NCBI RefSeq assembly: GCF_025506355.1
Contig: NZ_JANZYP010000007.1
Span: 1 to 64,000 of the forward strand
Reading direction: 5' to 3'
From: Sphaerisporangium corydalis
GTDB taxonomy: Bacteria > Actinomycetota > Actinomycetes > Streptosporangiales > Streptosporangiaceae
Length of the DNA stretch: 64,000 nucleotides
Of the stretch, positions 34,097 through 49,504 are shown piece after piece. The notes under the pieces were generated by a model, which did not search any database, was not told the origin of the DNA, and worked only from the letters and a program-made list of their open reading frames with translations. A program made the position numbers and the translations under genes. Position 1 is the first letter of the stretch. Every line of letters starts with the position of its first letter.

Positions 34097-34924
34097 ATGC
34101 GGCTCGGCGTCACGATGTTCACCACCGACCAGGCCATGCCGGTCGCCGACCTCGCACGCGCGGCCGAGGAGCGCGGCCTCACCTCGCTGTACGTGCCCGA
34201 GCACACCCACATACCCATCTCGCGCCGCACTCCGCCCGCGGCGGGCCAGGACGTGCTCCCCGAAGAGTACAAGCGGACCCTCGACCCGCTGGTGACGCTC
34301 GCGTACGCGGCGGCCGTCACCGAACGCCTCACCGTCGGCACCGGCATCATGCTCGCCGCCCAGCGCGACCCCATCGTCACCGCCAAGGCCATCGCCACCC
34401 TCGACCACCTGTCCGGCGGGCGCTTCGTGCTCGGCGTCGGATTCGGGTGGAACGTCGAGGAGATGGAAAGCCACGGCGTCACGTACGCCACGCGCCGCGA
34501 CGTCGTCCGCGAGCACGTGCTGGCCATGAAGGAACTCTGGAACCGGGACGTCGCCGGCTTCCAGGGGCGGCACGTGAGCTTCGAGCCGTCCTGGTCGTGG
34601 CCCAAGCCGGTCGCCGGTCCGCCCGTCCTCATCGGCGGCGCGGCAGGACCCAAGCTGTTCGCCCACGTCGCCGAGTACGCCGACGGGTGGATCCCGATCG
34701 GCGGCAAGGGCGTGAAGGACGCGCTGCCCGCGCTGCGCGAGGCGTGCGAGAAGGCCGGCCGGGACCCGGCGGCGATCAAGGTGATCCCGTTCGGGACGGT
34801 GCCGAGCGCGGGGAAACTCGAGTACTACGCGGGGCTGGGCATCGAGGAGGTCGTGTGCAGCCTGCCCAGCGCTCCCGCCGCCACCATCCTGCCGATCCTC
34901 GACGACTACTCCTCGTTCCTCTGA
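34097..34924 (+). CDS. LLM-class F420-dependent oxidoreductase
   Basis: The 275-residue luciferase-like barrel begins MRLGVTMFTTDQAMPVADLA and has ERLTVGTGIMLAAQRDPIVT and FVLGVGFGWNVEEM, as in the F420-dependent TIGR03619 type. GGAGAGG lies ahead of the ATG at 34097. It is divergent from the LLM/hydrolase operon and likely co-regulated through the palindrome between them. Its 3' end overlaps the convergent alkylsulfatase-like gene by 19 bases. Confidence 0.92.
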   Translation: MRLGVTMFTTDQAMPVADLARAAEERGLTSLYVPEHTHIPISRRTPPAAGQDVLPEEYKRTLDPLVTLAYAAAVTERLTVGTGIMLAAQRDPIVTAKAIATLDHLSGGRFVLGVGFGWNVEEMESHGVTYATRRDVVREHVLAMKELWNRDVAGFQGRHVSFEPSWSWPKPVAGPPVLIGGAAGPKLFAHVAEYADGWIPIGGKGVKDALPALREACEKAGRDPAAIKVIPFGTVPSAGKLEYYAGLGIEEVVCSLPSAPAATILPILDDYSSFL

Positions 34925-36414
34925 CCCTCGGCGCCGGGGCCGCTGTGGTCCTCGTGGCCGGTCGCTTCGTTCTCTCCGGTCGTTTCGTTCCGGTCGTTCG
35001 GGCTGGTCCGGTCGTTCCGGTCGTTCCGGTCGTTCCGGTCGTTCCGGTCGCTCTGGTCGTTCGGGGTGGCCGGGGTGGACGGGTCGGCGGTGGGTTCGCG
35101 ACGGGACGGGATCCACCACATCTGCCCGCCGGTGATCTCGTGGTAGACGTCGAGCAGGTCCTTGCCGGTGGTCACGCTTCGGGACTCCGCCGCCGCCCAG
35201 GTGTACACGCCGCGCGACATCACCGACGTCTCCTCCTGCACCCGGAGCGTGTACACGCGCGCCCGGACCTCGTGCACCTTGTGGTCGGCCGGATCCGCCT
35301 GCATCGCCAGCTCGGAGAGCTGGCAGGCCAGCCGGAGATCCCCCTGCGCGGCGGCCCTGGCGGCCCGCGCGGCGAGCGCGCCCGCGCCTCCGGCCAGCTC
35401 GGCGAGCGCCCCGGCGAGCACGTTGTCCGGCGCCGGCTTGAGGTGCGCGGGATTGCCGTCGTGCCAGCCGCCGTACAGCCGCCAGATGTTGCGCACGACG
35501 AACTCCGGCTCGTCGTAGTACGGCTGGAGGTAGGGCAGCCCAGAAAGCGCCTCGGGCGGCCTCACGATGTGGATGATCTCGTCGAGGCGGGCCCCGGCGT
35601 TCATCAGCTCCAGCGTCTGGTCGACCAGGCTGTCCAGATAGTCCGCCGTGTCGGTCAGCGCCTGCCGCACCCGCCCCGCGCCCACGATGGGCAGGCCGTG
35701 ACCCGGGAGCAGCACCTCCGCGTCCAGCGCCGCCATCTTCCGCAGCGCCACCGCCCACTCGTCCGGATACCGCTGGACCTTCTGCGGGTTCCCCGCGTTC
35801 GGGGTGACCCAGATGAACAGGTCACCGGTCAGCAGCACCCCGCGCTCCGGCAGGAACGCCCAGGTCGCGTCGTCGGTCTCCCCCCGGGCGTGCCGCAGGT
35901 CGAACGTCACGTCACCGAGCGAGACGTGCATCTGGTCGCGGTACGTCAGGTCGGGCTGCCGGTAGTTCGTCGGCCAGTTCATCTGCGTGAAGCCGAACTG
36001 CCGCTGGTTGATCACCGTGTTGTACCCGGCGGTCCTGGCGTACCGGGCGAACCGCGCCGCGACCGCCTCGTGCGCGATGACGCTCGGACGCGGGCCGTCC
36101 TCGGCGTCGAACGGATCCATGCCCGCCACGTGGTCGAAGTGCCCATGCGAGAAGACGGCGTAGCGGACTGGCTCGGCCGACCAGGCCCTCATGGCCGCGT
36201 GCATCGTCAACGCGTCCACGTGGTTGCCGGTGTCGAACAGAGCCAGGCCGCCATCGCCACGGATACCGTAGACGTTTCCGAAGGCCGGCCACATCGCCAC
36301 GCCTTCGGCCACCTCCTGCACCCCCCTCGAGCGCAGGTCCCGCAGCGGCACCTCCTGCGGGGTCACCGACCCCCGCCAGACACTGTCCGCGTGGTCAAGG
36401 ATCGATGATGTCAT
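34906..36414 (-). CDS. alkylsulfatase-like metallo-beta-lactamase-fold hydrolase
   Basis: This 502-residue protein has an MBL domain with the zinc motif SHGHFDHVAGMD and VLLTGDLFIW. The alkylsulfatase dimerisation domain follows (PYYDEPEFVVRNIWRLYGGW, then HDGNPAHLKPAP). The usual SCP2-like C-terminal domain of SdsA1 enzymes is absent. In its place is a hydrophilic tail of DRN repeats and Glu/Gly/Asn-rich sequence (last about 50 residues). It probably hydrolyses alkyl sulfate esters or a related substrate. An ATG at 36414 begins the family-like sequence. The tail is encoded by a 9-bp microsatellite. Confidence 0.87.
   Translation of the reverse strand: MTSSILDHADSVWRGSVTPQEVPLRDLRSRGVQEVAEGVAMWPAFGNVYGIRGDGGLALFDTGNHVDALTMHAAMRAWSAEPVRYAVFSHGHFDHVAGMDPFDAEDGPRPSVIAHEAVAARFARYARTAGYNTVINQRQFGFTQMNWPTNYRQPDLTYRDQMHVSLGDVTFDLRHARGETDDATWAFLPERGVLLTGDLFIWVTPNAGNPQKVQRYPDEWAVALRKMAALDAEVLLPGHGLPIVGAGRVRQALTDTADYLDSLVDQTLELMNAGARLDEIIHIVRPPEALSGLPYLQPYYDEPEFVVRNIWRLYGGWHDGNPAHLKPAPDNVLAGALAELAGGAGALAARAARAAAQGDLRLACQLSELAMQADPADHKVHEVRARVYTLRVQEETSVMSRGVYTWAAAESRSVTTGKDLLDVYHEITGGQMWWIPSRREPTADPSTPATPNDQSDRNDRNDRNDRNDRTSPNDRNETTGENEATGHEDHSGPGAEGQRNEE
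34990..35067. repeat. 9-bp tandem repeat coding the DRN tail
   Basis: GTTCCGGTC-type 9-mers repeat about seven times inside the 3' end of the alkylsulfatase-like gene, encoding Asp-Arg-Asn on the minus strand. The repeat length keeps frame, so copy number can change without truncation. Confidence 0.8.
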
Positions 36415-36528
36415 GCGCAAAGCCTGCCGCCTGCGGCCCCCGCGGCATCAGTAGGGAGATCCCTACACCTCGGATCTTCACCCGTGGCCGACCTTGGCAC
36501 GACGCGCGCAAGGGTGCTCAGAGGGATG

Positions 36529-36890
36529 GACGACCCAGCGCGCGTTCAGGCTCAAATACTTCGTTGGGCACGGGATTCCCCCCACCCGGCACCCGGTTGG
36601 GTGGTCAAGCAGTTGATGCCCACCCAAAAACACACCCCCATATGAGAGAGCACCCAACTCCCGGATTGGTTGAGCACCCCAACCTCGGGATCGGGGGGCG
36701 CTCAACCCCCGGACCAGGAGCACTCAACTCCCGGATCGGTTGAGCACCCCAACCTCGGGACGGGGAAGCGCTCAATCCCGGGATCCGGGGAGTGCCCAAT
36801 CCCCGGGATCGGGGGAGCGCCCAGCCCTCGGGATCGGGGGGCGTTCAACCCCGGGACCGGAAGGAAGCGCTTCACCCCCGGGCTCAGGTC
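36529..36890 (+). repeat. dispersed structured repeat, copy 1 (head plus iterons)
   Basis: The head (36529-36639) contains the conserved core at 36580-36639 with the parts CCACCC, GGGTGG, TCAA-GCAG-TTGA and a second CCACCC. An array of 8-9 imperfect repeats of about 24-27 bp (AACCCCGGGACC-type, to about 36890) follows. The same head occurs at 41249, 41698 and 46671 (the last two inverted). The gap 36415-37040 holds no supported gene. Confidence 0.8.
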
Positions 36891-37040
36891 GGCGGGTGCG
36901 CAGGATGGTCGCCTTGGCGAGCGTCAGGGCCTTGGGAGCGTCAGGGGAGCTTGGTGGTAGGGCTTGGCGGGAGGTGGCGGGTGGGTGCCGGGGGGTCAGG
37001 GTAGGGCTCGGTGGGTTGTGGACTGCGCGGTGAATAAATC

Positions 37041-37478
37041 TCATGCCGGTCGGGGTGCCCAGAGCAGGGCGAGGAGGAGGATCTGGGCGGCTCCGATGAT
37101 CGGGATGACGACATGGAACATCGGCGAGGACGTCCAGGAGAAAGCGCTGAACACGATGGACAGCACCTGGGAGGCCGTGGTCAACCGGCGGGTCCACAGT
37201 CGTGCGGTGGCCAGCTTCCACACCAGCAGTGCGCACAGCGCCAGCAGGACGCCATGGAACACCGCTCCGGAAGTCACGGCGATGTCGGCGGACCGCGAGA
37301 CCTCGGCCGCGCCGAACCCCGGGTGCTGGGCAGCGATCTCGTTCCGTAACTCTCCCTGACGTGCCCACATCACCACGGGCACCACCAGGTGGCTGACCGC
37401 GACGGCGGCGAGCAGGGCCCGTGCCAGTTGGACGGGTGCCGGTACCGGCGGAACGCGAGTAGTGGCGGTGGCCTCCAT
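37041..37478 (-). CDS. small membrane protein in a MarR operon
   Basis: This 145-residue protein has four hydrophobic segments (around LLAAVAVSHLVVPVVMW, a GAVFHGVLLALCALLVW stretch, a QVLSIVFSAFSW stretch and IPIIGAAQILLLALLW). I do not recognise a named family. AGGAG precedes the ATG at 37478, and the MarR stop lies two bases upstream, so the two are co-transcribed. It may be a transporter or membrane sensor controlled by the MarR protein. Confidence 0.7.
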   Translation of the reverse strand: MEATATTRVPPVPAPVQLARALLAAVAVSHLVVPVVMWARQGELRNEIAAQHPGFGAAEVSRSADIAVTSGAVFHGVLLALCALLVWKLATARLWTRRLTTASQVLSIVFSAFSWTSSPMFHVVIPIIGAAQILLLALLWAPRPA

Positions 37479-37480
37479 AT

Positions 37481-37990
37481 CTAGTTCTCCTCTTGTTCGA
37501 TGTTCGTCGGACGGCGTGCCCGGCGCCACCGGGGGCCCGTCCCGGAGGGGGTCGCGTCGGCGGCGGTGTCGCCGTGCCGCGCCCAGGCCTCGTTGAGGCG
37601 GGTGATCAACTCCCGCGCTGTGGCCACGTCCTCGTCCGGCCAGTCGGCGATGACCTTCGAGAACACGGCGGCCCCGGCCTGGATGGTGGTGTCGATCTCG
37701 GCGCGGCCGCTTTCGGTCTGCCGTACCAAGAAGGTGCGGGAGTCGGTCGGATCGGGCTCCACCGCGACCTGTCCCGCCCGTTCCAGCGCGGAGAGGTGGC
37801 GGCTGGTCGCCGACGCGGTGAGGCCGATCTCGGCGGCGATCGCGCTCGGGCGGACGGGCCCCCGGGCGGCCACCGTCCCCAGCACCCGGACCCTGGTCAG
37901 GTCGAGACGCCGGGAGATCCGGCGGTGTCCCTGGTCGATGAGTTCCATGACCGCTTGAGCCAATTCTACGCGATCATTTCGTTGCGTCAT
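37481..37990 (-). CDS. MarR-family transcriptional regulator
   Basis: The 169-residue protein carries a MarR winged helix (LTRVRVLGTVAARGPVRPSA, then IAAEIGLTASATSRHLSALE, with the wing around RTFLVRQTESG). It is co-transcribed with a small membrane protein. An inverted repeat with TCATTTC and GAAATGA arms (37974-37997) is centred on its own start codon, suggesting autorepression. The ligand is unknown. Confidence 0.9.
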   Translation of the reverse strand: MTQRNDRVELAQAVMELIDQGHRRISRRLDLTRVRVLGTVAARGPVRPSAIAAEIGLTASATSRHLSALERAGQVAVEPDPTDSRTFLVRQTESGRAEIDTTIQAGAAVFSKVIADWPDEDVATARELITRLNEAWARHGDTAADATPSGTGPRWRRARRPTNIEQEEN

Positions 37991-37997
37991 GAAATGA
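37974..37997. promoter_or_regulatory. inverted repeat over the marR start
   Basis: TCATTTC and GAAATGA (7-bp perfect arms, 10-base spacer) flank the start codon at 37988-37990. The position fits autogenous repression by the MarR protein. Confidence 0.55.
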
Positions 37998-38126
37998 AAT
38001 TATCACGCATGATCGCTGACAGGAGGTTCCAGGGGTAGAAGCGACAGGTGTCGGTTCGCAGCCGGACTGGCGAACCTGTCCGCCGCGGTGGCGAGAAGGT
38101 GGCGCGTTCTCACTGGAAAAGGCGAA

Positions 38127-38161
38127 AAGGGCCCCCTCGGGGTGAAGCAGGGGGCCCTCTT
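38127..38161 (-). terminator. terminator of the aldo/keto reductase gene
   Basis: AAGGGCCCCCT pairs with AGGGGGCCCT. On the minus strand the stem runs into CCTTTTCGCC. It lies about 90 bases after the aldo/keto reductase stop at 38251. Confidence 0.8.
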
Positions 38162-38250
38162 CGTCCGTGCGGCGACGCTGAGCTGGGGCGTAGCGGTTCA
38201 GGGCCCCGGCCCAAGGCTTAGGTGATGAGGTGCCTGGGTGGGGTGCGGGG

Positions 38251-39264
38251 TCAGGCCGCGTTGTGCTGACCGTTGACCGGAGGGGTCACGGTGCATCGAC
38301 TGGTGGCGTTCAAGCGGGCCGAGACGGGTTCGGGAAGGTTGAACGCCAGGCTGGCGAGGTTCGCGGCCAGTTGCTCGGTTGAGCGTGGGCCGACGATCAC
38401 TGAGGTGATCGCGGGTTGATCGCTGAGCCAGGCCAGCGCAACGGTCGGCGCGGTCGTTTTCAGTTCGGCGGCGACGGCTGCGACTTCGTCGGCGATGTCG
38501 AAGTGCTGTTCGGCCAGTAGGCCGCTGACGAACGCGCGTGCCATTGGGCTGGGCATCGCAGCCCACTGAGCGAGCCTCGATCCTTCGGTCGGCGCGGTAC
38601 CTCGCTGGTATCGTCCCGCGAGCAGTCCACTGCCGAGTGGGCTGTAGGCGAGGATGCCGAGCCCGTATTGCCGGCAGGCGGGGATGATTTCAGCTTCTAT
38701 GGCGCGCATGATCAGGGAGTAGTTGGCTTGCAGGCTGATGAAGGGCGTGCCGCTGGTGCGCTGCGCGGCCCATTGGGCGGTGATGATGCCTGCGGCGGTG
38801 AAGTTCGAGCAGCCCAGGTAACGGACTTTGCCGGAGCGTACGAAGTCGTCAAGCGCCGCCATGGTTTCTTCGGCCGGGGTGTCCGGGTCCGGGACATGGC
38901 ACTGGTACAGGTCGATGTAGTCGGTGCCCAGTCGGCGCAGGCTGTCCTCCAGGGCGCGTGTCAGGTGCGCGCGGGACAGGCCTCGGTTGTTGGGTCCGTC
39001 GCCTTGCGGTGCTGCCCCTTTGGTGGCCAGGACGACCTCGGCTCGGCGGTGCGCGATGGCTCGGCCCACGACTTCTTCGCTGGTGCCACCTCGGTAGGTG
39101 TCGGCGGTGTCGATGAAGTTGTGACCGGCGTCGAGGAACGCGTCGATGATTCGCCGGGCTTCGGGTTCCGGGGTCGGGGCTTGCGGGTCGCTGCCGAAGT
39201 TCATCGTGCCCAGGCATACCCGGGAGACGCGGAGGCCGGATCGGCCCAGTGTCGTGTAGTCCAT
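38251..39264 (-). CDS. aldo/keto reductase
   Basis: The 337-residue protein starts MDYTTLGRSGLRVSRVCLGT and has the AKR tetrad in context: FIDTADTYRGG (Asp and Tyr), VLATKGAAPQ (Lys) and IDLYQCHVPD (His). The NADPH-binding end VIVGPRSTEQLAANL is present. It reduces aldehydes or ketones with NADPH. GAGGG precedes the ATG at 39264. It is divergent from a TetR gene; two GGAATC/GATTCC palindromes lie between them, so repression by that TetR is likely. Confidence 0.92.
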   Translation of the reverse strand: MDYTTLGRSGLRVSRVCLGTMNFGSDPQAPTPEPEARRIIDAFLDAGHNFIDTADTYRGGTSEEVVGRAIAHRRAEVVLATKGAAPQGDGPNNRGLSRAHLTRALEDSLRRLGTDYIDLYQCHVPDPDTPAEETMAALDDFVRSGKVRYLGCSNFTAAGIITAQWAAQRTSGTPFISLQANYSLIMRAIEAEIIPACRQYGLGILAYSPLGSGLLAGRYQRGTAPTEGSRLAQWAAMPSPMARAFVSGLLAEQHFDIADEVAAVAAELKTTAPTVALAWLSDQPAITSVIVGPRSTEQLAANLASLAFNLPEPVSARLNATSRCTVTPPVNGQHNAA

Positions 39265-39281
39265 GTCGCCCTCGTAGAATC

Positions 39282-39321
39282 GGAATCGTGATTCCGCTTG
39301 AAGATACGGAACCTGGATTCC
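39282..39321. promoter_or_regulatory. two GGAATC-GATTCC operators
   Basis: GGAATCGTGATTCC (39282-39295) is a perfect palindrome with a two-base centre. GGAACCTGGATTCC (39308-39321) is the same site with one mismatched position, 26 bases further on. Both lie in the 91-bp gap between the aldo/keto reductase and its divergent TetR. Confidence 0.72.
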
Positions 39322-39355
39322 TCTTGTCAACGGCGCTGGACCCCACGGGGTCGGC

Positions 39356-39937
39356 ATGATGCGTTCTGATGCGGCACGCAATCGGGCGAAGGTGCTCGCG
39401 GCTGCCGAGGCGGTGCTCGGCGAACAAGGACCGGCGGCCCGCATGGACGAGATCGCCCGGCGAGCCGGAGTCGGTGTCGGCACCGTCTACCGGCACTTCG
39501 CCACCAAAGAGGCCCTGTACGCGGCCCTTGTCTCGGCCCGTGTCGATCTGCTTCTGCAGGAGGCGGCCCGATTGCGAACGGGCACAGAGCCGCAGACCGC
39601 GTTCTTCACCTTCTTCACGCAGATCGTCGCGGACGCGGCAAGCAAGAAGGCTTTGACCGACGCGTTGCAAGGGGCCGGAGTTGACATCAAGGCAGAGCAA
39701 ACAGACCAGCGAACACAGATGCGCGAGGCGCTGGCGGACCTCCTGCACGGCGCTCAGCGCGTAGGCGCCATACGTCCCGACGTGGGCATGCCCGAGATCC
39801 TCGCCCTGCTACGGGGGGCAAGCATGGCGGCGGAAACCGGCGAGTACTCCGGCCCGGTCCTCGACCGCGCGGTCGCCGTCCTGTTCGACGGCTTGCGACC
39901 GTCGGCGATCTCTACGGCGCCCATGCCACCGGCATGA
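39356..39937 (+). CDS. TetR-family repressor of the aldo/keto reductase
   Basis: The 193-residue protein has a TetR helix-turn-helix (ARMDEIARRAGVGVGTVYRH, then FATKEALYAAL) at residues about 28-62 and a SBD-type C-terminal domain. It is divergent from the aldo/keto reductase with two matching palindromes between them. Two consecutive ATGs at 39356 and 39359 could both serve. The ligand may be an aldehyde or other reactive carbonyl by analogy with similar pairs (inference). Confidence 0.9.
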   Translation: MMRSDAARNRAKVLAAAEAVLGEQGPAARMDEIARRAGVGVGTVYRHFATKEALYAALVSARVDLLLQEAARLRTGTEPQTAFFTFFTQIVADAASKKALTDALQGAGVDIKAEQTDQRTQMREALADLLHGAQRVGAIRPDVGMPEILALLRGASMAAETGEYSGPVLDRAVAVLFDGLRPSAISTAPMPPA

Positions 39938-40238
39938 GCGCACCCGTTCCGGCCTCGGACAAGTGAGAGAGGATGGCTAGTGACGACAGCACCGCAACCT
40001 GGCGAACCGCGGCTCAGCCCCGGTCCGCCTCGCCAGTTCAGTCGAGAGGCGACGACAGTGCCAACCGATCAAGTCTTTCGTCACGGCCGGGGAACGGCGC
40101 CGCGGCCCCCACCTCGACGGTCGTCGAAGTGATCACCGGTCACCCCGCCCACACCTTCGCCCAATGGGCGAAGGACACGCCGCCGACTTCCGCTGAAAGA
40201 CTCAGCCGGCCGGAACAGGTGCTGAAGGGGGACTTGAG
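39938..40238. other. intergenic region, no supported gene
   Basis: These 301 bases between the TetR and the YdjC-like gene contain an open frame from 39973 (preceded by GAGAGG) that runs into the next gene in another frame. Its product is a low-complexity Ser/Arg/Thr-rich sequence without family features, so I do not call it. Confidence 0.45.
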
Positions 40239-41138
40239 ATGGAGCCGAGTGGTGCGGGGGCCGCGGGGTTGGGGTTTCCCTCCGGGGCTCGGGTGCTCAT
40301 CGTCAACAACGACGACTTCGGGATGTATCACGCGATCAACGCGGCGGTCATCGAGTCGATCGAGAAGGGGATCGCCAGTTCGTGCAGTCTGATGGTGCCG
40401 TGTCCATGGGCGCGGCACGCGATGCACCTGCTCCGTGAACGGCCGGAGATCCCGTTCGGGATTCATCTCACGTTGTTCTGCGACACGACCCACTATGGGT
40501 GGGGGCCGCTGACCGCGAAGGAGAAGGTGCCGTCCCTTCTGGACGAGAATGGCGAGCTGTTCACGCCCGCTCAGGTTCCCGAGCTGCTCGCCCAGGCCCG
40601 TCTGGACCAGGTGGAGGTGGAGTTTCGGGCACAGGTAGAGGTTGTGCTCGGCGCCGGGCTGGCGCCCACCCACCTGGACTGGCACTGCCTGGCCGACGGG
40701 GGACGCGCGGACGTCTTCGACCTGACCGTGGCCCTGGCCGACGAGTACGGCCTGGCGGTACGGGCTTGGCTCGAACCCGCACGCCAGAAGCTACGGCGAA
40801 GGGGTCTTCCAGTCGTCGACCACGACTTCCTGGACAGCTTCCGCCTCGATCTCGGCGACAAGCAGGCCCGCTACGCCGAACTACTGCGCGCCCTGCCGCC
40901 CGGCCTGACCGAATGGGCGGTACACCCCGGCCTGGGCGACTCCGAGTCCCAGGCGATCGACCCCGGCTGGCGCGTCCGCCAAACCGACCACGATTTTCTC
41001 ACGTCCCCACAAGCCCGCGAGATCCTCCACCAAGAACGCATCATCGTGACCGACTACCGAACCCTCCAACGAAGATGGTCCCAAACCTCAGCCCACTCAC
41101 CAGGCCAGCCGGCTCTGGATACTCCTCAGGCTCTTTAA
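40239..41138 (+). CDS. YdjC/ChbG-type carbohydrate deacetylase
   Basis: The 299-residue protein belongs to the YdjC family of metal-dependent deacetylases (ChbG removes acetyl from chitooligosaccharides). Metal- and substrate-site motifs are visible: IVNNDDFGMYHAIN (Asp pair), GIHLTLFCD (His), PTHLDWHCLADGG and WAVHPGLGDSES. GGGGGA lies before the ATG. It stands alone, with no chitobiose transporter next to it. A copy of the dispersed repeat starts about 75 bases after its stop. Confidence 0.9.
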   Translation: MEPSGAGAAGLGFPSGARVLIVNNDDFGMYHAINAAVIESIEKGIASSCSLMVPCPWARHAMHLLRERPEIPFGIHLTLFCDTTHYGWGPLTAKEKVPSLLDENGELFTPAQVPELLAQARLDQVEVEFRAQVEVVLGAGLAPTHLDWHCLADGGRADVFDLTVALADEYGLAVRAWLEPARQKLRRRGLPVVDHDFLDSFRLDLGDKQARYAELLRALPPGLTEWAVHPGLGDSESQAIDPGWRVRQTDHDFLTSPQAREILHQERIIVTDYRTLQRRWSQTSAHSPGQPALDTPQAL

Positions 41139-41213
41139 TTCCTCTAGCCCAGCCCCCTGGAGGCTCTCTCCATCGTCCACTGCGAATCGATTCTGGGGGA
41201 GCTTGGACCTGTC

Positions 41214-41310
41214 ACATCCAAGCCAAACGTCGGTGAGCGCGGGATTTTCCCCACCCGGCACCCAGTTGGGTGGTCAAGCAGTTGATGCCCGCCCAAGAAC
41301 ACACCCCCGG
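41214..41310 (+). repeat. dispersed structured repeat, copy 2 (head)
   Basis: The conserved core lies at 41249-41308. The second arm reads CCGCCC instead of CCACCC, which still pairs with GGGTGG through a G-U wobble. The TCAA-GCAG-TTGA inner stem is intact. Only a short, decayed iteron tail follows. It points toward copy 3. Confidence 0.8.
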
Positions 41311-41434
41311 ACCGACGGGCGCCTCATCACCGGCTCAGCCCGATCGGTGTTCAGGCTCGCTGCGGTGGTGCGAGAACGAGCAACACGAACAATCGCTAGC
41401 CGGCCCCTGCCCACTTCCCGGCTGAGCCGGGGGG

Positions 41435-41747
41435 TTAAGCGCTTCCGGTCCGAGCGATGGCCGCTGCCTGGTCCCGCGGGTTATCCGCTCCCCGTCCGGG
41501 GTTGGGCGCTGCCCGTTCCTGCGGGTTAGCCGATGCTTGGTCCCTGGGGTTGGGCAGTTCCGGTCCGGGGGTAGGGCGCTGCCTGGTCCTGCAGGTTGGC
41601 CGCTGCCCGTCCGGGGGGTTAGGCGCTGCCCGGTCCCGGGAGTTTGTTGTTGGGTGGGCATCAAGTGCTTGACCACCCAATTGGGTGCCGGGTGGGGGAA
41701 ATTCCTCTCCCACCGCAGTTTTGGTTTGGATGCGCGCTGGGTCGTTC
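41435..41747 (-). repeat. dispersed structured repeat, copy 3 (head plus iterons)
   Basis: Read on the minus strand, the head runs from 41747 to 41646 (GACCCAGCGCGC, then the core with GGGTGG, TCAA-GCAC-TTGA and CCACCC). Seven to eight iterons of about 25 bp continue to 41435. It is inverted relative to copy 2. Together copies 2 and 3 fill most of the 700-base gap 41139-41839, which has no supported gene. Confidence 0.8.
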
Positions 41748-41839
41748 ACTATACGAAGGTGTCAGTGTGGATACACGCGTAGGGCTGGGCCAGCCTGGGA
41801 TCGCCTTCAGATTGGGCGGTCCTATTGCTGCCTGTAAGG

Positions 41840-42043
41840 TCAGCTAGGGATGTCGCCGGTCTTTATGCTGGTCAGGAACCTGGACCATTCACCCGGTAGG
41901 AACATCAGGTTCGCACTATGCGGATCTTTGCTGTCCCTGACTCCGATGCTGCCGGGTACGCCCGTAGCGACCTCGACGCACTGGCCCGAGTCGCTACTGT
42001 AACTGCTCTTACGCCACCGTGCGCTCCAAAGGTCATCCGCCAA
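41840..42043 (-). CDS. DUF397 protein
   Basis: This 67-residue DUF397 protein has the family pattern W-R-KSSYS...GQCVEVA...IGVRDSKDP...W-FL. DUF397 proteins usually follow XRE/DUF5753 regulators in actinomycetes and are thought to act with them in development or as toxin-antitoxin-like pairs (role unsettled). The start is a TTG, the first available codon after an in-frame stop. The sequence around the start (GTGAACCAAATTGGCG) duplicates that of the DUF397 gene at 42471, so this is probably a tandem duplicate. Confidence 0.82.
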   Translation of the reverse strand: MADDLWSARWRKSSYSSDSGQCVEVATGVPGSIGVRDSKDPHSANLMFLPGEWSRFLTSIKTGDIPS

Positions 42044-42267
42044 TTTGGTTCACCGTCCCTCGACAGTTGGAATGTCTGTGTGAGACGGTAGCGGATCCGT
42101 GACTAACCTGACAGGGCGAAGATATCCCGAGATACCGGTCAGCAGTGATTGTCGTTTCCACTGTTCGTACCGATTGGTCACCTCACAAGGTGCCGAGTTC
42201 GCTGGTAGACGTGGGAGATCCCTTATGGGGCGGGGCTCGCAGGGGGCTATCGAAGTGGATCGATGGG

Positions 42268-42471
42268 TCAGGTGGGGAAGTTGCCGGATTTTATGCTGGT
42301 TAGGAATTTAGACCATTCATCAGGTACGAGCGCCAGGATCGCGCCGGACGGATCTTTGCTGTCTCTGACTCCGATGACGCCAGGCACGCTCAGGGTGACT
42401 TCGATGCAATTCCCCTGATCGGCGCTGAAGCTGCTCTTACGCCACCGTGCGCTCCGAAGGTCGCTCGCCAA
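42268..42471 (-). CDS. DUF397 protein, first copy
   Basis: The 67-residue DUF397 protein (W-R-KSSFSADQGNCIEV, then GVRDSKDPSG) is about 65% identical to the copy at 41840. Its TTG start lies inside the end of the upstream DUF5753 fragment (35-base overlap), so it was part of the usual XRE-DUF397 operon. Confidence 0.82.
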   Translation of the reverse strand: MASDLRSARWRKSSFSADQGNCIEVTLSVPGVIGVRDSKDPSGAILALVPDEWSKFLTSIKSGNFPT

Positions 42472-42700
42472 TTTGGTTCACCGCTTCCTCTATGAGTCGG
42501 AGTGACTGTTTGAACGGTACGGCTTCGGCCCTGATCGCGTCATACCGAAGGATGAGATCGGCGATCAACTGGCGATCGTCGAAGGTGCGTCCGACAGGTT
42601 GCGCGTCGGCGTAGGGGTACCCGTTCCGTTCGGCGATGATGAATCCACCCATCAGACCGCAGTGCGGCCGCGCTTCGTAAGGCACAAGCTGAATCGTCAC
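42437..42700 (-). pseudogene. C-terminal part of DUF5753 regulator (frameshifted)
   Basis: The 87-residue reading frame starts with a GTG that overlaps the stop of the XRE fragment (GTGA). It carries the second half of a DUF5753 domain: VTIQLVPYEARPHCGLMGGF, then FDDRQLIADLILRYDAIRAE and the terminal SLRLIEEAV. Intact DUF5753 proteins read continuously through this point. It is either a single-base frameshift or a coupled split gene; I favour a frameshift. Confidence 0.7.
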
Positions 42701-43257
42701 CTGAGGTGCTCGGCGACCTCAAGGAGAAAGATCAGTTGCTCGCGCATGATCTGCATGCTCCCGATGACGTGGCGGATAACGTCCTCATCAATGATCACGT
42801 TGAGGGTGGGTGGCTTCTCGCGGTGGAGTAGTGCCTGCCGTTGCATACGGTTCGTCAGGCGCTCCTCCAGCTCCTCTGCAGTGATACCCGGCCAGGTTGC
42901 CAGGACCTTCTGGGCGTAAGCCGGCGTTTGGAGCAAGCCGGGGACGACTACCGGCTGCCAGGTTCGGAGACTGGCGGCGTCGTCTTCCTCCTCCAGCCAT
43001 GGGCGGAGGTATTCCGGTGCCTTGTTCCAGGTGGTGGCGGAGTACAGCCTGATCATGGCGCCTTCGAGGCCGAGGGCGCGGTCGCATAGTTCGGCGAACT
43101 GCTTCGACGGGGGGCGCCTGTTCATCTCGACCATGTTGACCATGGAGTCGGAGTACCCGATGCGGTCGCCGAGTTCCCGCTGGGTGAGTTGCGCCGCCCG
43201 CCGGTGGCGATGCAGCTCGAAGGCGAAGAGGGCGCGCGGGGACTCGTAAGGATCCAC
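42697..43257 (-). CDS. XRE-family regulator, N-terminal part (frameshifted DUF5753)
   Basis: This frame carries the XRE helix-turn-helix (LTQRELGDRIGYSDSMVNMV) and the first half of DUF5753 (WLEEEDDAASLRTWQPVVVP, then GLLQTPAYAQKVL), ending at MREQLIFLLEVAEHLR. The remainder of the domain continues in the -1 frame at 42700. The GTG at 43257 (VDPYESPRALF) is the family-like start. The complete regulator would be about 270 residues. The upstream extension to 43410 is not conserved. Confidence 0.78.
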   Translation of the reverse strand: MDPYESPRALFAFELHRHRRAAQLTQRELGDRIGYSDSMVNMVEMNRRPPSKQFAELCDRALGLEGAMIRLYSATTWNKAPEYLRPWLEEEDDAASLRTWQPVVVPGLLQTPAYAQKVLATWPGITAEELEERLTNRMQRQALLHREKPPTLNVIIDEDVIRHVIGSMQIMREQLIFLLEVAEHLR

Positions 43258-43749
43258 TTCTTGGGTGGTGCGAGCCCTCCGGCCAGTTCTATTTGCTTCG
43301 AATACACCGGAGCGGCACCAACGCAGCAGATTACCCCCGAGCGCTGCGCAGAAGGTACAACCGCGAGAAAGGCGCAGGGGAGGCGCTCTGTGAACGTTTT
43401 TCATCCTCATACGGCGGTTTGCTGATCACAGCGTGGTCGCGGAACGGGTATTCGCCTGACGACGTAGAGAGTTCCTGGTAGGCGGGTTGATCACCACAAT
43501 CGGACCCGTCTCAACCAGGAGCTTCTGTGCTGTTCTATCGCGCTGCCGTCGATTTGTCGCGTTCAACGCTAAACTACGTGGCCCGGGTGCGGGATCGGAC
43601 CGACGTAGCTGCACTCGATCCTATTGTTTGCGAGCAAGGGTTGCATGGTCGTCCATGCCCGCCGACACGTGTCAGGGTGGCCATTCACCGTAGGACACCG
43701 GGGTATCGGCCCGTGGAGGACGCCGTGTGCTCCTTAGCTGTCGAACACC
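43258..43749. other. intergenic region, no supported gene
   Basis: These 492 bases lie between the XRE fragment and the BTRD1-repeat gene, both on the minus strand. GC content is lower than in the neighbours. Short frames exist on both strands, but none has a domain or a good ribosome-binding site. The XRE promoter should lie here. Confidence 0.45.
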
Positions 43750-44997
43750 TCAGCCGATGGAGTAGCCGCTGAACTGGACCAGCCGGAATCCTTGGCTGGA
43801 CAGTTCGTCAAACTTCTGTTGGTACTGATCCGAGGTCAGGCCGTACACAGCGCGCTGCGGCGGGCCACTCTGCTGCTCAAACATTGCCGCGAAACGCTCC
43901 TGGCTCCCCAGCGAGTAGCCATTGACCCCCACGAGCCGGAAACCCTGCCCCTTCAATTCGTCGAATTTCTGCTGGAACCGATCAGGCGTCAGCCCGTGGA
44001 ACGCCAGCCAGGGCGGACCATCCTGCTGCTGGAAAATCGCCGCGAAACGCTCCTGGCTCCCCAGCGAGTAGCCGCTGAACTGGACCAGCCGGAATCCTTG
44101 GCTGGACAGTTCGTCAAACTTCTGTTGGTACTGATCCGAGGTCAGGCCGTACACCGGGCGCTGTGGCGGGCCACTCTGCTGCTCAAACATTGCCGCGAAA
44201 CGCTCCTGGCTCCCCAGCGAGTAGCCGCTGAACTGGACCAGCCGGAATCCTTGGCTGGACAGTTCGTCAAACTTCTGTTGGTACTGATCCGAGGTCAGGC
44301 CGTACACCGGGCGCTGTGGCGGGCCACTCTGCTGCTCAAACATTGCCGCGAAACGCTCCTCGTTCCCCAGCGAGTAGCCGCTGAACTGGACCAGCCGGAA
44401 ACCCTGCCCCTTCAATTCGTCGAACTTCTGCTGGAATCGATCAGGCGTCAGCCCGTGCAACGCCAGCCACGACGGCCCAGAGGTTTGCTCAAAGATCGCC
44501 GCATAGCGGCCGGTGTCCGGAGGTTGGTCGCCGGCCAGGCGACCGCCCGGACCGACAGCAAGGGTCAGGGTGCCACCAGCGGCGCCGAGCAACATCAGCG
44601 CTGCCAAGATGAGGGCGGCAAGACCCCCAACGTGGACATGGGTTCTCCTGGATAGATCGACGTTGCCGATATTGCCACCGATGACCGAGTGACTCATCCG
44701 GACAGACCTGGTTGTCGACACCCTTACGTCTGGGGCCAGCGGCGTCCCTGCCGCCGCAGTGGTTCCGGATTGAGATTGGTCTGGGCCGACCGAGGTCGTC
44801 CGGTCTGGCGATGGCGCCCGCGAGGCGCCAATCGCCTTCAAGCCCTCAAGCCCGGCGAACATCGCAATCAATAACAGGACGCCGACGGCTATACCCCAGT
44901 GCCATTGGTTGGCGAGGAAACCGCCGACGACTCCGCTGAGCGCGGAAACCACTGCGGCCGACGCGGCAATTGCTGGGTGTGACAACAAGCGGCGCAT
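43750..44997 (-). CDS. membrane protein with five BTRD1 (polyglycine-hydrolase-like) repeats
   Basis: The 415-residue protein begins with two hydrophobic segments (residues 8-28 and 33-52). A polar linker follows, then a glycine-rich stretch (SVIGGNIGNVDLSRRTHVHVGG, abbreviated here as IGGN...VHVG, residues 105-125) directly before a third membrane segment (126-150). Five repeats of 51 residues fill residues 164-415, each RFAAxFEQxxGPP...YGLTxDQYQQKFDEL...GFRLVQFSGYSLG, the BTRD1 pattern. Repeats 2 and 3 are identical. AGGAG precedes the ATG at 44997. The repeats probably lie outside the membrane. Function is unknown. Confidence 0.82.
   Translation of the reverse strand: MRRLLSHPAIAASAAVVSALSGVVGGFLANQWHWGIAVGVLLLIAMFAGLEGLKAIGASRAPSPDRTTSVGPDQSQSGTTAAAGTPLAPDVRVSTTRSVRMSHSVIGGNIGNVDLSRRTHVHVGGLAALILAALMLLGAAGGTLTLAVGPGGRLAGDQPPDTGRYAAIFEQTSGPSWLALHGLTPDRFQQKFDELKGQGFRLVQFSGYSLGNEERFAAMFEQQSGPPQRPVYGLTSDQYQQKFDELSSQGFRLVQFSGYSLGSQERFAAMFEQQSGPPQRPVYGLTSDQYQQKFDELSSQGFRLVQFSGYSLGSQERFAAIFQQQDGPPWLAFHGLTPDRFQQKFDELKGQGFRLVGVNGYSLGSQERFAAMFEQQSGPPQRAVYGLTSDQYQQKFDELSSQGFRLVQFSGYSIG
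44051..44356 (-). repeat. two identical 153-bp tandem repeats
   Basis: 44051-44203 and 44204-44356 appear identical base for base and encode BTRD1 repeats 2 and 3. The flanking repeats (43745-44050 and after 44357) share the period but have diverged. Identity at the DNA level points to recent duplication or gene conversion. Confidence 0.85.
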
Positions 44998-45744
44998 CGA
45001 GACTCCTGTTCGACGGGGTGCGGCCCGTGCACGCATGGCAGGTGCAATGGTTCAGGCACCTGACAGCGGTCTTAATTAATAGTGCCATAGACGCCGAGAC
45101 GCCACCTACCGTATGCGTCTCGACTACTGACGGCCAACAGCCGAATCGATCACAATGAGTCAACGTTTCGACACCGCCTAATCCGCTATCCGAGCCAACC
45201 GGGCTGTTCGGTCCCAGAAATCAGGTGACTTGATCACGCCCCGACCCGCTGTGCGATACGTAAGGGGTTGAGACGAGCGGGGCGGCTGTGTCCGCGGATT
45301 GCAGCGTCTATATTTCATCGCATCGCTCGATGTCTGAGGGATCATGTCATCGATCGGCGCCTGTGACCTGCGGCTCGACATGTGCGATGAGACAGAGGAA
45401 GGCCCAGATTCTCGGTAAGGGTTGCACCTTTGAAGTCGGAGAGCACTCCGGCACCCAGGTTCGTCCAAGCAATCACTGATCCACCGGGACTCGCCAAATC
45501 TACCGGGACGAAATTCACCCAGCTGAGGGACACCTGCGGGCACAACCGCCGCTCCGTCTGGGAATCCGCCAAGTTGTCCACCCGAATACCGAGTCGCCCA
45601 AGGATGAAGAGGCTCAGTGTAGCGTGTCCGCTAGTTCCGCATAGGCTCGCCCTTTTGTCTCTTATATGGCTTTAGTCTGGATCTGAAGATCAAGGACATG
45701 TTGTTCCTCAATCAACGTTGACGGTATTTCGGGGGACACCAATT
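44998..45744. other. intergenic region, no supported gene
   Basis: About 750 bases of comparatively AT-rich DNA separate the BTRD1 gene from the IS630 remnant. Frames on either strand (for example 45342-45581 minus) lack recognisable domains and ribosome-binding sites. It probably contains the BTRD1 promoter and old insertion debris. Confidence 0.45.
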
Positions 45745-46575
45745 GATCATCTGGCGGGTCTCGCCGAGATGCAAAGCGTGGGCGGAGTTGGAAGCCGGGC
45801 CGGCCACTTATGGGTGGTAGGACCAGTGCTGGACGCTGGGCCGGATCGCTGAGGTGATCCGGCTCCGGTTCGGGTTCAGCTATACCCCGGCTGGGGTCTG
45901 GTATCTGCTGCGCTGGGCCGGTTGGTCCTGGCAGGCCCCGGCCCGGCGGGCGACCGAACGTGATGAGAGTGCCATTGCCGCCTGGAAGGCCGAGCAGTGG
46001 CCGGTCATTAAAGGACCGTCGCGGAGTTGGGGGCTTGGCTCTGCTTCGAGGATGAGGCGGGCCAGACCCTGAGATCGCCGAAAGGCCGTACCTGGGGGGC
46101 CAAAGGCGGCGGCCGTGTCTCCATCGCCGCCTTGGTGGCGGTCAAACCCGGGCAGCGGCCCCGGCTGATCTACCGCACCCGTACTTATCGCGGCCGCAAG
46201 GGCGAGCCGAAAGGCTTCGGCTCCGCTGACTATGCGGCCTTGTTCGATGGCGCTCATCAGCACCTCGGCGCACCGGTGGTGGTGGCGGTGGACAACCTCA
46301 ACACCCAGGTCTCGGCGCGGATGAGGCAGTTGATCGCCGCCCGCCCGTGGCTGAGGGTCTACCAGCTGCCGCCTTATGCGCTGGAGTTCAACCCGGTCGA
46401 GGCGGTCTGGGCGCATATGAAGAAGTCTCTGGCCAACCTCACCACCCGAACCCTTGACCAACTCGCTGACCTGGTCAAGAACCGGCTGAAACGCATGCAG
46501 TACCGGCCTGCGCTGATCAGCGGCTTCTCGCCAAGACCGGGCTGGACCCCAACCCGCCGTAACCTCCGCCATTAA
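45745..46575 (+). pseudogene. IS630-family transposase remnant
   Basis: The region encodes most of an IS630 DDE transposase in two frames. First comes RIAEVIRLRFGFSYTPAGVW and further helix-turn-helix sequence to about 46020, then the catalytic part with FEDEAG (first Asp), VAVDNLNTQ (second Asp) and LEFNPVEAVWAHMKK (Glu). An in-frame TAG at 45818-45820 and a one-base frameshift near 46020-46030 break it, and the N terminus is missing. It cannot make an active enzyme. Clear terminal inverted repeats were not found. Confidence 0.85.
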
Positions 46576-46603
46576 ACTCTCTAGGCCGGAGCTTAGGTGC
46601 TTC

Positions 46604-46712
46604 CGGTCGGGGGGTGTGTTTTTGGGTGGGCATCAACTGCTTGACCACCCAAGTGGGTGCCGGGTGGGGGGACTCTCCTTGCGAACCGAGTTTGTGGGCT
46701 TGAACGCGCGCC
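46604..46712 (-). repeat. dispersed structured repeat, copy 4 (head)
   Basis: On the minus strand the head (from GCGCGCGTTCAAGCCC at about 46712) leads to the core 46671-46610 with both CCACCC arms, GGGTGG and TCAA-GCAG-TTGA. Only one partial iteron follows before unrelated DNA. It begins a few bases after the LuxR stop and ends about 30 bases from the IS630 remnant. Confidence 0.8.
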
Positions 46713-46723
46713 GCTGGCAGGGG

Positions 46724-49504
46724 TCAGACTTCGCCGCGTTCGTAGGCGAGGGCTAGTTCCACGCGGGAGCGGAGGCCGGTTTTGGCGTAGACGCGGGTGA
46801 GGTAGACCTCGACGGTCTTGCGGCTGTAATGCAGTTCGTCGGCGATCTGGGGGTTGGAGAGGCCGCCCGCGACCAGTTCGATCACGCGTCGTTCGACCGG
46901 GGTGAGCGCCGCCGCGGGGGCGGCGGCGAGGCCGGCGGTTTTCAGGTGGCGGGCCGCTCGTTCGCGCCAGGGTGCCGCGCCGAGGTCGGTGAAGATGCCG
47001 TGCGCCCGTACGAGCTGGGCGCCGTCGCCGAGTGCGCCGAGGATGAGGCGGGCCCGGGCCTCCTCGAACTTCAGGCCGTCGGCCCTGGCGGATTCCAGTA
47101 CCGCCTCGGCCCGCTCGGCGTCCTGGAAGGCCCCCGCGGTCGCGAGTTCGGAGGTGATGCGGGCCTTCGGCGTGCCCGTTCGCACGATCTCGGATAGTTC
47201 GTCGGCCACCTTCCTGGCCATGTCCATCTCCCCGGCGAAGCTGTGCATGGCGACGCGGAGCGCCAGCACGCGGTGGACCACGTCGGGCGGGCCGCCGTCG
47301 AGGGCCTCGTCCAGCAGGCGGGTGGCCGTCGCCCGGTCGCCCAGGCCGAGCGCGCGCTTGGCCTTGAACATGGCGCGCAGCGAGAGCTGGAGGACGCAGT
47401 TGGGCGGCGGGTCGGCGAGCAGGGGTTCGGCCTCGGAGTAGCGTCCCTGGTCGAGCAGGATGTCCAGCTCGATGTTGCGCAGCAGCGCCACGTTCTCCCA
47501 CAACCCGGCGTCGGTGAGCGTGACCGCGTCGGACCGGATGTCGCGCAGGGCGTGGTCCCATTCGCCGCCGAGCCGGCGCACGACCGCCATGGTGCGGACG
47601 TGCTGGCCGGCGATGTTGTGCCAGCCGAGTCCCCGGTAGATCTGTTCGGCCTGGGTGAGCAGGTCGAGCGTGCGGGTGCGCAGGCCGCCGCTGGCCAGGA
47701 TGTGCGCCGACGACTCCAGCGCGGCGAGGCGCCCGGCGGGTGGCAGGGCCGCCGACGCCGACAGCAGGGTGTCGAGAGCGCGTTCGGTCTCCTCCCATCG
47801 CCCCTTGATGATCGCGACGCCGGCGAGGGCGCTGAGGGCGATCACCAGGTCTTCGGGCGGGCAGTCGGGGAGCGCCTGCCAGGCGCCGCGCACCATGTCG
47901 TCCGAGTCGCGGCCGAGCTGGGTGCTGACCACGGCCTGCTGGGCGAGCAGGGCGGTCGGGTCGTCGGCGGCCGGGAGCTGCTCGGCGGCGATGGACACCG
48001 CGACCTCGTACTGCCCCATGGAGTGCGCGGCGTTGACCATCGTCTGGGCGGTGCGGGTGTGCCGGCGCCCCGGGGTGAGGACGGCGAGGGCCGCCTGCCC
48101 GGCGCTCAGCGCGTCGACCGGGCGTGAGCCCTTCCAGTACGACAGCGCCTGCCTGGACAGCAGCACGCCGCGTTCCCCGTCGGGGGCGAGTTCGGCGGCC
48201 CTGCCGTACCAGTGGCCGGCCGACAGGGGCGCGGTCCAGCGGGTCAGCTCGGCGGCGCGGAGCATGGCGGGCAGCGCCTCGGCGCTCGTGCCGCCTTCGG
48301 CGAGGTGGGTGGCCCATTCCAGGACCCGGCGGGTCCCGCTGAGGCCCTGCCGCTGGAGCAGTTCGGCGATGCGGGTGTGGACCCGGCGCCGTTCGGCGGG
48401 CCCGAGGTCGGCGTACAGGGCCTCGGCGACCAGGGGGTGGGCGAACTCGTAGGCGCCGTCGCCGGTCGCGACGACGAGGCCGTCCCTGACGAGGCCGTCG
48501 AACGCGCGCTCGGCCTCCCCGGCGTCGAGCCCGGCGACCTCGGCCAGCGCTTCGAGGTCGGCCATGCCGGCGGGGCGGGTGCGGCGCAGCGCGGCGAGAA
48601 CTCTGGCGAGGGTACGTCCGCCTTTGTCGCGCTGGAACAGCCGGGTGAGGATGGCGCCGCGGCGCGGGCCGGGGTAGGCGGACTGGACGGCGCCGCCCTG
48701 CACCAGGGTGAGCACCGCCTCGCGGACGAACCAGGGGTTGCCCCGGCTCTCGTCGTGGACGCGGCGCAGGATCGGCTCGCTCGGGGTGCGGCCGAGCAGG
48801 CCGGTCACCAGGGCGGTCACCTCGTCGAGCGACAGCGGGCTGAGCCGGACGACCATGTCGGCGTCCATCGCGGGCAGCCGCCGCGCGGTGCCGGCGACGA
48901 CGAGTCCCCGTACGCGGCGGGGGAGGTAGGAAAGGACGCCGAGCGTGTCGGCGTCGGCCAGGTGCAGGTCGTCGATGGCGAGGAACGTGCGGCCCGGCAG
49001 CCCTTCGAGCAGGTTGGCCGTGCGTACGGCGGGGGCGGCGCCCATGATCCCGAGGGCGGCCTGGTCGATCGCGTCCAGGAGTTCCTTGAGGGGTTCCCGC
49101 GCGGCCGGGTCGGCGTGCAGCGGGCCCAGCGCGTCGGCGAGCGAGGCGAACGCGAGGCCGCTGCCGAAGTCCCGCGCCTGGCCGTGCAGCACGCGGTACC
49201 CCATCGACCTGGCCAGGGCCTCGGTCTCGGCCAGCAGGTGCGTCTTGCCGATCCCGGCTTCGCCGTGCACCAGCAGCGTCACGGGCGGTCGCGTGAGCGC
49301 GGACTCGAACCGGCGCAGCAACCCCGGCCGGTCCGTCGCGGCGAGCGGATCGGATCGGTCCGCGGCCTCGGTGGGGTGAGGGCTCGGGGGGGGAGGGGAG
49401 GGCAGGGCCGGGGGGTGCGGGAGATTCTGTGCCGGGGGGGCGCCGGGTAACCCGCCGGAGGGGGCCGGGGTGTCACCGTCGGGGCGGTCAGGGGGGAGGT
49501 TCAC
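46724..49504 (-). CDS. LuxR-family (LAL) ATPase transcriptional regulator
   Basis: The 926-residue protein has a Pro-rich N terminus, an AAA-type ATPase with Walker A GEAGIGKTHLL (residues 81-91) and Walker B FLAIDDLHLAD (about 170), a long TPR-like helical middle, and a LuxR helix-turn-helix at the C terminus (LTPVERRVIELVAGGLSNPQ, then IADELHYSRKTVEVYLTRVY). This is the LAL activator layout. Its ATG overlaps the stop of the upstream TetR gene (ATGA), so both are made together. The target may include the divergent MMPL gene. Confidence 0.93.
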   Translation of the reverse strand: MNLPPDRPDGDTPAPSGGLPGAPPAQNLPHPPALPSPPPPSPHPTEAADRSDPLAATDRPGLLRRFESALTRPPVTLLVHGEAGIGKTHLLAETEALARSMGYRVLHGQARDFGSGLAFASLADALGPLHADPAAREPLKELLDAIDQAALGIMGAAPAVRTANLLEGLPGRTFLAIDDLHLADADTLGVLSYLPRRVRGLVVAGTARRLPAMDADMVVRLSPLSLDEVTALVTGLLGRTPSEPILRRVHDESRGNPWFVREAVLTLVQGGAVQSAYPGPRRGAILTRLFQRDKGGRTLARVLAALRRTRPAGMADLEALAEVAGLDAGEAERAFDGLVRDGLVVATGDGAYEFAHPLVAEALYADLGPAERRRVHTRIAELLQRQGLSGTRRVLEWATHLAEGGTSAEALPAMLRAAELTRWTAPLSAGHWYGRAAELAPDGERGVLLSRQALSYWKGSRPVDALSAGQAALAVLTPGRRHTRTAQTMVNAAHSMGQYEVAVSIAAEQLPAADDPTALLAQQAVVSTQLGRDSDDMVRGAWQALPDCPPEDLVIALSALAGVAIIKGRWEETERALDTLLSASAALPPAGRLAALESSAHILASGGLRTRTLDLLTQAEQIYRGLGWHNIAGQHVRTMAVVRRLGGEWDHALRDIRSDAVTLTDAGLWENVALLRNIELDILLDQGRYSEAEPLLADPPPNCVLQLSLRAMFKAKRALGLGDRATATRLLDEALDGGPPDVVHRVLALRVAMHSFAGEMDMARKVADELSEIVRTGTPKARITSELATAGAFQDAERAEAVLESARADGLKFEEARARLILGALGDGAQLVRAHGIFTDLGAAPWRERAARHLKTAGLAAAPAAALTPVERRVIELVAGGLSNPQIADELHYSRKTVEVYLTRVYAKTGLRSRVELALAYERGEV

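Follow-up and report, generated by a model that had tools for sequence, protein, structure and literature searches.

Repeat copies at the borders of an inserted gene block

The first 64,000 nt of contig NZ_JANZYP010000007.1 of Sphaerisporangium corydalis, here called the window, contain four copies of a hairpin-forming repeat between two conserved genes, one of the alkyl-sulfatase/metallo-beta-lactamase (MBL) type on the left (34906..36420, reverse strand) and one for an AAA + LuxR-type regulator on the right (46724..49504, reverse strand). Copy 1 (36527..36639, forward strand) consists of an outer part (36527-36555) and a core (36556-36639), and copy 2 (41215..41308, forward) lies about 80 nt past the stop of a YdjC-like gene. 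Copy 3 (41638..41748, core 41638-41720) and copy 4 (46610..46711) are on the reverse strand, and copy 4 ends about 12 nt ahead of the end of the stop codon of the LuxR-family gene. An earlier note on this DNA had reported four cores of about 60 bp just outside genes. A blastn search with copy 1 as the query found the other three (E values of 2.4e-28 for copy 4, 3.9e-24 for copy 2, and 1.5e-23 for copy 3), a repeat search of the window recovered the same copy pairs as inverted and direct repeats, and all four cores fall outside the genes called with a purpose-made codon model. The similarity spans about 100 nt, more than the 60 first noted (36538-36639 versus 46610-46711, 86%), and among the window copies it runs outward to about position 36527 and inward up to the iteron tails.

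The tail of copy 1 (36648..36885, forward) has a period of about 24-25 nt, and also of 48 and 70 nt; that of copy 3 (41425..41640, reverse) has a period of about 23-24 nt, and also of 46 and 69-70 nt. Tandem Repeats Finder reported 8.9 units of 25 bp at 36648-36860 and 9.2 units of 24 bp at 41430-41640, in line with the iterons described before. Copy 4 is almost without iterons, as had also been seen: a single iteron-like unit (46583..46609, reverse) is followed, going inward, by the remnant of an IS630-type transposase gene. The sequences of the window copies contain the described GGGTGG/CCACCC arms, including the change of one arm to CCGCCC in copy 2, which allows G-U pairing, and the changed loop of copy 3.

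Copies 1 and 4 bound a 10.2-kb insertion, which was missed in the first reading. The earlier note had proposed a comparison of empty and occupied sites, and alignment of the flanks showed that the block at 36478..46710 is missing from five of the eight congener stretches that were fetched. The gap between the MBL and LuxR genes is 22 bp in G002, 23 bp in G007, 34 bp in G006, 53 bp in G009, and 156 bp in G008, compared with 10.2 kb in S. corydalis. The eight stretches come from nine congener matches; the match in G005 lies at a contig end, G004 had no match, and the stretch of G010 is without the LuxR gene. The right junction is within about 20 nt of the end of copy 4, and copy 1 starts about 50 nt inside the left junction. 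The guanine-plus-cytosine (GC) content of the block is 64.4%, versus 71.9% in the rest of the window.

A family of 34 full copies in one genome

We built a covariance model from 32 copies and searched the genome of S. corydalis (9.48 Mb in 162 contigs, 99.4% complete, with the window on contig C130) and ten congeners, scoring the best 150 candidates per genome; in S. corydalis these were the best 150 of 16,367, so weaker copies may be missed. The whole-genome search with the core that the earlier note had suggested thus yielded 34 full copies and one partial copy on eight contigs, with 4 full copies on C130, 2 on C153, 6 on C86, 6 on C96, 4 on C97, 7 on C91, 4 on C78, and 1 on C100; 30 of them lie outside the window. 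Of the 37 rows that the model returned, the other 3 are the partial copy, which lies on C86, and two matches to the reverse strand of C86 copies that are included in the 34. With a profile of the cores, one full copy scored 47 bits and the other 33 scored 57-90 bits, and an exact core pattern had 22 matches in this genome. The first copy on C100, at the very start of that contig, and the last copy on C91, at its end, are 96% identical; C91 and C100 are therefore probably contiguous, giving seven loci.

By hand tally, the first copy is on the forward and the last on the reverse strand, i.e., both face inward, in six of the seven loci (C130, C153, C96, C97, C91/C100, and C78). If orientations were random and loci independent, the chance of at least six in seven would be about 0.0013. 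Alternating GGTGGGC/GCCCACC motifs about 19 nt apart are followed by the iterons, whose periods are locus-specific (23-24, 46-48, and 69-70 nt in the window, 47 nt in C86, 52-53 nt in C78, 50 nt in C96, 45 nt in C91, and 54 nt in C153), and the spacing between tandem copies ranges from 180 to 314 bp. Mean identity is 0.73 within a locus (70 pairs) and 0.62 between loci (491 pairs). Two other tandem arrays were noticed near copies: a 17-bp array, unlike the repeat, at the right edge of the C86 block (stretch L010 15252-15419) and three 50-bp units, 90-92% alike, between facing copies in C96 (stretch L011 6243-6392).

At three loci examined, copies enclose DNA that congeners either lack or carry in the opposite orientation. 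At the C86 locus, a GH3 gene and a convergent gene are separated by about 11 kb in S. corydalis, compared with 150 bp in G006, 808 bp in G001, and about 7.5 kb in G003; the second gene was not found in the stretches of G002, G009, and G005. At C78, facing arrays enclose a response-regulator gene whose orientation is opposite to that in all four congeners (G003, G006, G007, and G008) with a close homologue in the fetched stretch (82-87% DNA identity): this gene and an EAL gene are on opposite strands in the four congeners and on the same strand in S. corydalis. A kinase partner is directly ahead of the response regulator in G007 and G008, and outside the left array in S. corydalis. The LacI-family matches of the C96 locus in congeners are at most 61% identical, too distant for a synteny comparison, and C153, compared with a single congener stretch, gave no clear result. 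Among the repeats listed in the congener stretches at the window, C86, and C78 sites, facing small arrays were absent. The C86 site of G003 contains an inverted pair of its own, 647 nt long and 74% alike (stretch L057 8858-9504 and 12923-13569).

Distribution in other genomes

The earlier note had expected further copies in related genomes. They are numerous within the genome of S. corydalis itself, but no arrays were found in the relatives searched, and the covariance model detected none in the ten congeners. In a family survey of 341 genomes including that of S. corydalis, with stricter filters and 13 candidates scored per genome, the 340 other genomes gave only two weak, single matches. One, in G003 of the same genus (41.8 bits, E 4.1e-5), starts about 10 nt past the stop of a HATPase_c_2 gene, and the other, in G245 of another genus (39.4 bits, E 1.7e-4), starts about 20 nt past the stop codon of a gene that by eye reads like a LacI-type regulator; both are in sense, and the stretches around them contain no arrays. 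These matches, with their modest scores, may be distant relatives of the repeat's ancestor. The HATPase_c_2 protein of G003 itself has at least 50 matches in S. corydalis, and two of those listed are inside islands (C153 and C78), as we call the DNA enclosed by copies.

The exact core pattern had no match in 148 other genomes or in a large genome collection, which leaves out the S. corydalis genome. In a blastn search of 149 genomes with few candidates scored in each, G004 and G019 matched over about 30-44 nt (E 1.4e-4 and 2.3e-4, respectively). A looser pattern, requiring solely a perfect 10-bp stem and a loop of 8-14 nt, found 24 stretches in the large collection and 2 in viral contigs; we treated these as unrelated, as they scored at most 21.3 bits, compared with up to 20.9 bits for the hairpins of true copies on the wrong strand. 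One C86 copy used as a query had no match at E 0.01 in 72,556 plasmid and 50,697 phage records, and a plasmid or phage source was set aside on this ground. Among the papers listed in literature searches, none described a fitting repeat family, judged by title and beginning of the abstract, which does not prove that no such description exists.

Hairpins and sub-unit structure

In the aligned copies, the whole 13-bp downstream helix pairs in 89.4% of 416 cells, above all 500 shuffles (mean 87.7%), and of the 256 cells in its inner part (alignment columns 52-59 paired with 75-82), 247 are unaltered, 7 have turned into G-U pairs, and 2 are mismatched. The upstream helix pairs in 96.4% of 220 cells with almost no variation. 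For the downstream helix there was no excess of pairs changed on both sides (238 of 500 shuffles reach the count), of pair types (410 of 500), or in the covariation score (216 of 500), although a strong test would need more variation than the copies show. What preserves the hairpins is near-identity together with G-U changes rather than covariation. As nothing covaries beyond shuffles, an RNA switch is unproven, and the alignment fits a conserved palindromic sequence rather than an RNA structure kept by selection. Folding energies gave z values of -3.3 for a C86 core hairpin, -1.2 for the window core (reached by 18 of 200 shuffles), and -1.6 to +0.4 for four longer stretches. Rfam reported no family at the gathering score except rRNA genes; two other matches were at chance level, far below the gathering score.

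The sequences give only partial support to a division of the core into two units of about 38 nt in tandem. In 18 of 32 copies, including one of the four in the window, at most 10 of 200 shuffles reach the two-unit score, and for the consensus 108 of 2000 do. The palindrome score of the first unit is reached by 1757 of 2000 shuffles and that of the second by 2 of 2000. The alternative hairpins in about half of the copies (those 18 of 32) may follow from two such similar units in tandem.

Gene content of the blocks

The enclosed genes are unrelated accessory genes, none common to all islands. In the window, the left part of the block (37041..41138) encodes a 145-aa protein without a family, a MarR-like protein, an aldo/keto reductase, a TetR protein, and the YdjC-like protein, and the right part (42697..45036, reverse strand) encodes an XRE/DUF5753 regulator and a BTRD1-repeat protein. 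The islands together hold regulators (MarR, TetR, ArsR, XRE/DUF5753, response regulator, and HATPase_c_2) and small enzymes (aldo/keto reductase, zinc alcohol dehydrogenase, Nudix, GNAT, and RibD_C). The HATPase_c_2 gene of C153 has XRE/DUF5753 and DUF397 genes nearby, an arrangement that we take to resemble whiJ-like sets. Six other island intervals have a GC content 0.9 to 3.8 points below neighbouring sequence, so that it is lower in seven of seven. Among the island proteins scanned, which represent part of the open reading frames (ORFs), there was no recombinase except the IS630 remnant. The latter covers the C-terminal part of an IS630-family transposase (46027..46575, forward strand); the degraded gene extends over 45800-46590, adjoins the single iteron of copy 4, and is open only in this part.

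Several other features were seen in and near the block. At 43760-44400 the BTRD1-repeat gene (43750-45036), polyglycine-hydrolase-like, repeats a 153-bp unit in tandem about 4.2 times. A pair of 218-nt copies, 78% alike and with starts 428 nt apart, is at 41838-42483, and G010 carries a 74% homologue of 42266-43254 close to its MBL gene (stretch L090 5636-6634). A GTAGGGA..TCCCTAC palindrome upstream of the MBL-type gene (36451-36466), perhaps an operator, is kept in congener stretches L091, L095, and L096. Farther away, 10126-11753 has long tandem repeats with periods that are mostly multiples of 9 bp and by eye looks like collagen-like Gly-X-Y coding sequence.

Interpretation of the repeat

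We tentatively favour the view that the sequence is a genome-private repeat resembling BOX and miniature inverted-repeat transposable elements (MITEs), with putative mobility, that marks the joints of insertions and rearrangements. It is probably a non-autonomous mobile or recombination-prone DNA repeat and not an RNA switch. The core would be the conserved head (about 85-110 nt) of a modular hairpin-forming repeat with a variable tail built of degenerate units, each about 23-54 nt long. This element may have spread within one actinomycete genome in the manner of a MITE or BOX element, moved by an enzyme encoded elsewhere, after which tails and whole heads could have expanded via slippage or unequal exchange, and recombination between facing or dispersed copies may have helped to assemble and invert the enclosed gene blocks. 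The hairpins would then matter as DNA, for recognition or recombination, or as by-products of palindromes, and an RNA switch is not needed. The earlier note had read the repeat as a structured nucleic-acid element, either mobile or regulatory, that could not be assigned to a known family; the lack of an Rfam family at the gathering score, the 34 copies, and the inserted blocks around them agree with it as far as it goes. A function for the alternation of the two hairpins is unproven.

Several observations weigh against the view that we favour. At the window site, G001 and G003 carry about 10.9 and 12.6 kb, respectively, of other, repeat-free DNA; hence, the site may be a general insertion hot spot and the repeat a passenger. 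No target-site duplication was detected at the window block, the one site tested, where the longest shared word is 8 nt and 121 of 1000 shuffles reach that length. The C86 locus breaks the inward-facing pattern and ends with forward copies. Within a locus, copies in opposite orientation are less alike (0.69, 38 pairs) than those in the same orientation (0.78, 32 pairs), unlike what strict terminal inverted repeats predict. No transposase could be linked to the copies, with the genome-wide transposase scan covering PF01797 only, and several ORFs of the islands lack a family match. Some of these points suit a different explanation, in which a passive, intergenic, minisatellite-like palindromic repeat expands under weak selection while hot spots between conserved genes gather foreign genes and repeats independently. 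This is possible, albeit on the unlikely side, and the idea of separate collection at hot spots is not far behind the one we favour. The tandem spacing, the locus-specific tail periods, the foreign DNA in G001 and G003, and the lack of a Y1 transposase in the genome and of a target duplication at the window block all speak for it, as do the unrelated tandem units of G010 near the window site. The latter are 51-nt units with an internal palindrome (stretch L090 8495-8800) and 74-75-nt units (5324-5546), located roughly 6 and 9 kb away from the MBL gene; they are perhaps coding or perhaps an independent array near the same hot spot. Yet a passive repeat would need a transfer mechanism to reach seven loci, and it leaves unexplained why six of them face inward and why copy 4 lies at an insertion junction.

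The remaining explanations assign the hairpins or iterons a task. A terminator-like or mRNA-protecting hairpin 3' of genes, multiplied in this genome, would account for the 12 of 19 arrays whose outermost copies adjoin, by hand tally, a called gene at its 3' end, for the two weak matches shortly past stop codons, and for the z value of the C86 hairpin. However, 6 of the 19 are beside a 5' end and 1 could not be assigned, a tally of 12:6:1 that rules out a strict 3'-end element; a T run after the hairpin was not seen by eye, the window core folds little better than shuffles, and the helices show no covariation, making this explanation improbable. Still less probable is a site that a replication, transfer, or recombination protein recognises, as in plasmid origins and transfer loci with their iterons and palindromes. 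The regular motif alternation ahead of the iterons is what such a site might look like, but the C86 copy had no plasmid or phage match and no Rep or Tra gene was among the proteins scanned. The transcribed RNA switch with mutually exclusive hairpins that headed the earlier note is the least credible: both pairings are possible in most copies, and the downstream one exceeds all shuffles, but tandem similar units would yield both automatically, neither helix covaries beyond shuffles, the position relative to a gene is not consistent, and no Rfam family reaches its gathering score. A more far-reaching version of a DNA role, to which we give only a slim chance, is that the arrays are the ends of undescribed actinomycete gene-capturing islands, with inverted heads and tails used by a recombinase encoded elsewhere. 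If true, such a recombinase would insert, invert, and exchange blocks of unrelated genes flanked by conserved ones, in the manner of an integron whose sites are two-sided.

Comparison with known repeat systems

In architecture, the repeat most resembles the BOX-type repeats of Streptococcus pneumoniae. As described in PMC3049150, one genome contains 125 BOX, 110 RUP, and 30 SPRITE elements, which form hairpins, lie between genes, occur in hardly more than one or two species, are over-represented between convergent genes, and are considered parasitic; BOX carries a variable number of middle modules, and RUP is hypothesised to be moved by an IS630 element (PMC3049150). The present repeat is likewise genome-restricted within the sets searched, modular, hairpin-forming, and intergenic, but differs from what is reported there by its 34 full copies in seven clusters, mostly as facing arrays around multi-gene blocks. 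By analogy with RUP, the IS630 remnant next to copy 4 is a lead, and only a lead, toward RUP-like mobilisation. REP, REPIN, and BIME elements also form palindromes in head-to-head or tail-to-tail pairs and clusters (PMC3733652). A REP palindrome has 20-40 bp and a terminal GTAG or CGTC foot, versus a head of about 85 nt here, in which inspection by eye assigned no such tag. The Y1_Tnp family (PF01797) of their RAYT transposases had no match in S. corydalis, while the same search was positive in 5 of 14 genomes, and REP/RAYT was set aside on this ground.

MITEs and composite elements built from them have inverted ends around DNA that is absent at the empty site. The present repeat resembles them in its inward-facing ends at six of seven loci and in the empty site for the window block in five of eight stretches, and differs in having several copies per end and no target duplication at the one site tested; no related autonomous element was identified, the only recombinase among the island proteins scanned being the IS630 remnant. 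Integron attC arrays are folded imperfect palindromes near captured genes, whereas the present copies occur in both orientations and not as one per gene. Small interspersed repeats are usually viewed as scattered parasites; here a family seemingly private to one genome is associated with the borders of multi-gene insertions and with an inverted part of an operon, and the role of such repeats in shaping actinomycete accessory regions is directly testable by strain comparison. As REP/RAYT failed on the transposase and MITEs on the target duplication at the one site tested, we file the repeat under no named family but as a variant within the broad kind of genome-private interspersed repeats.

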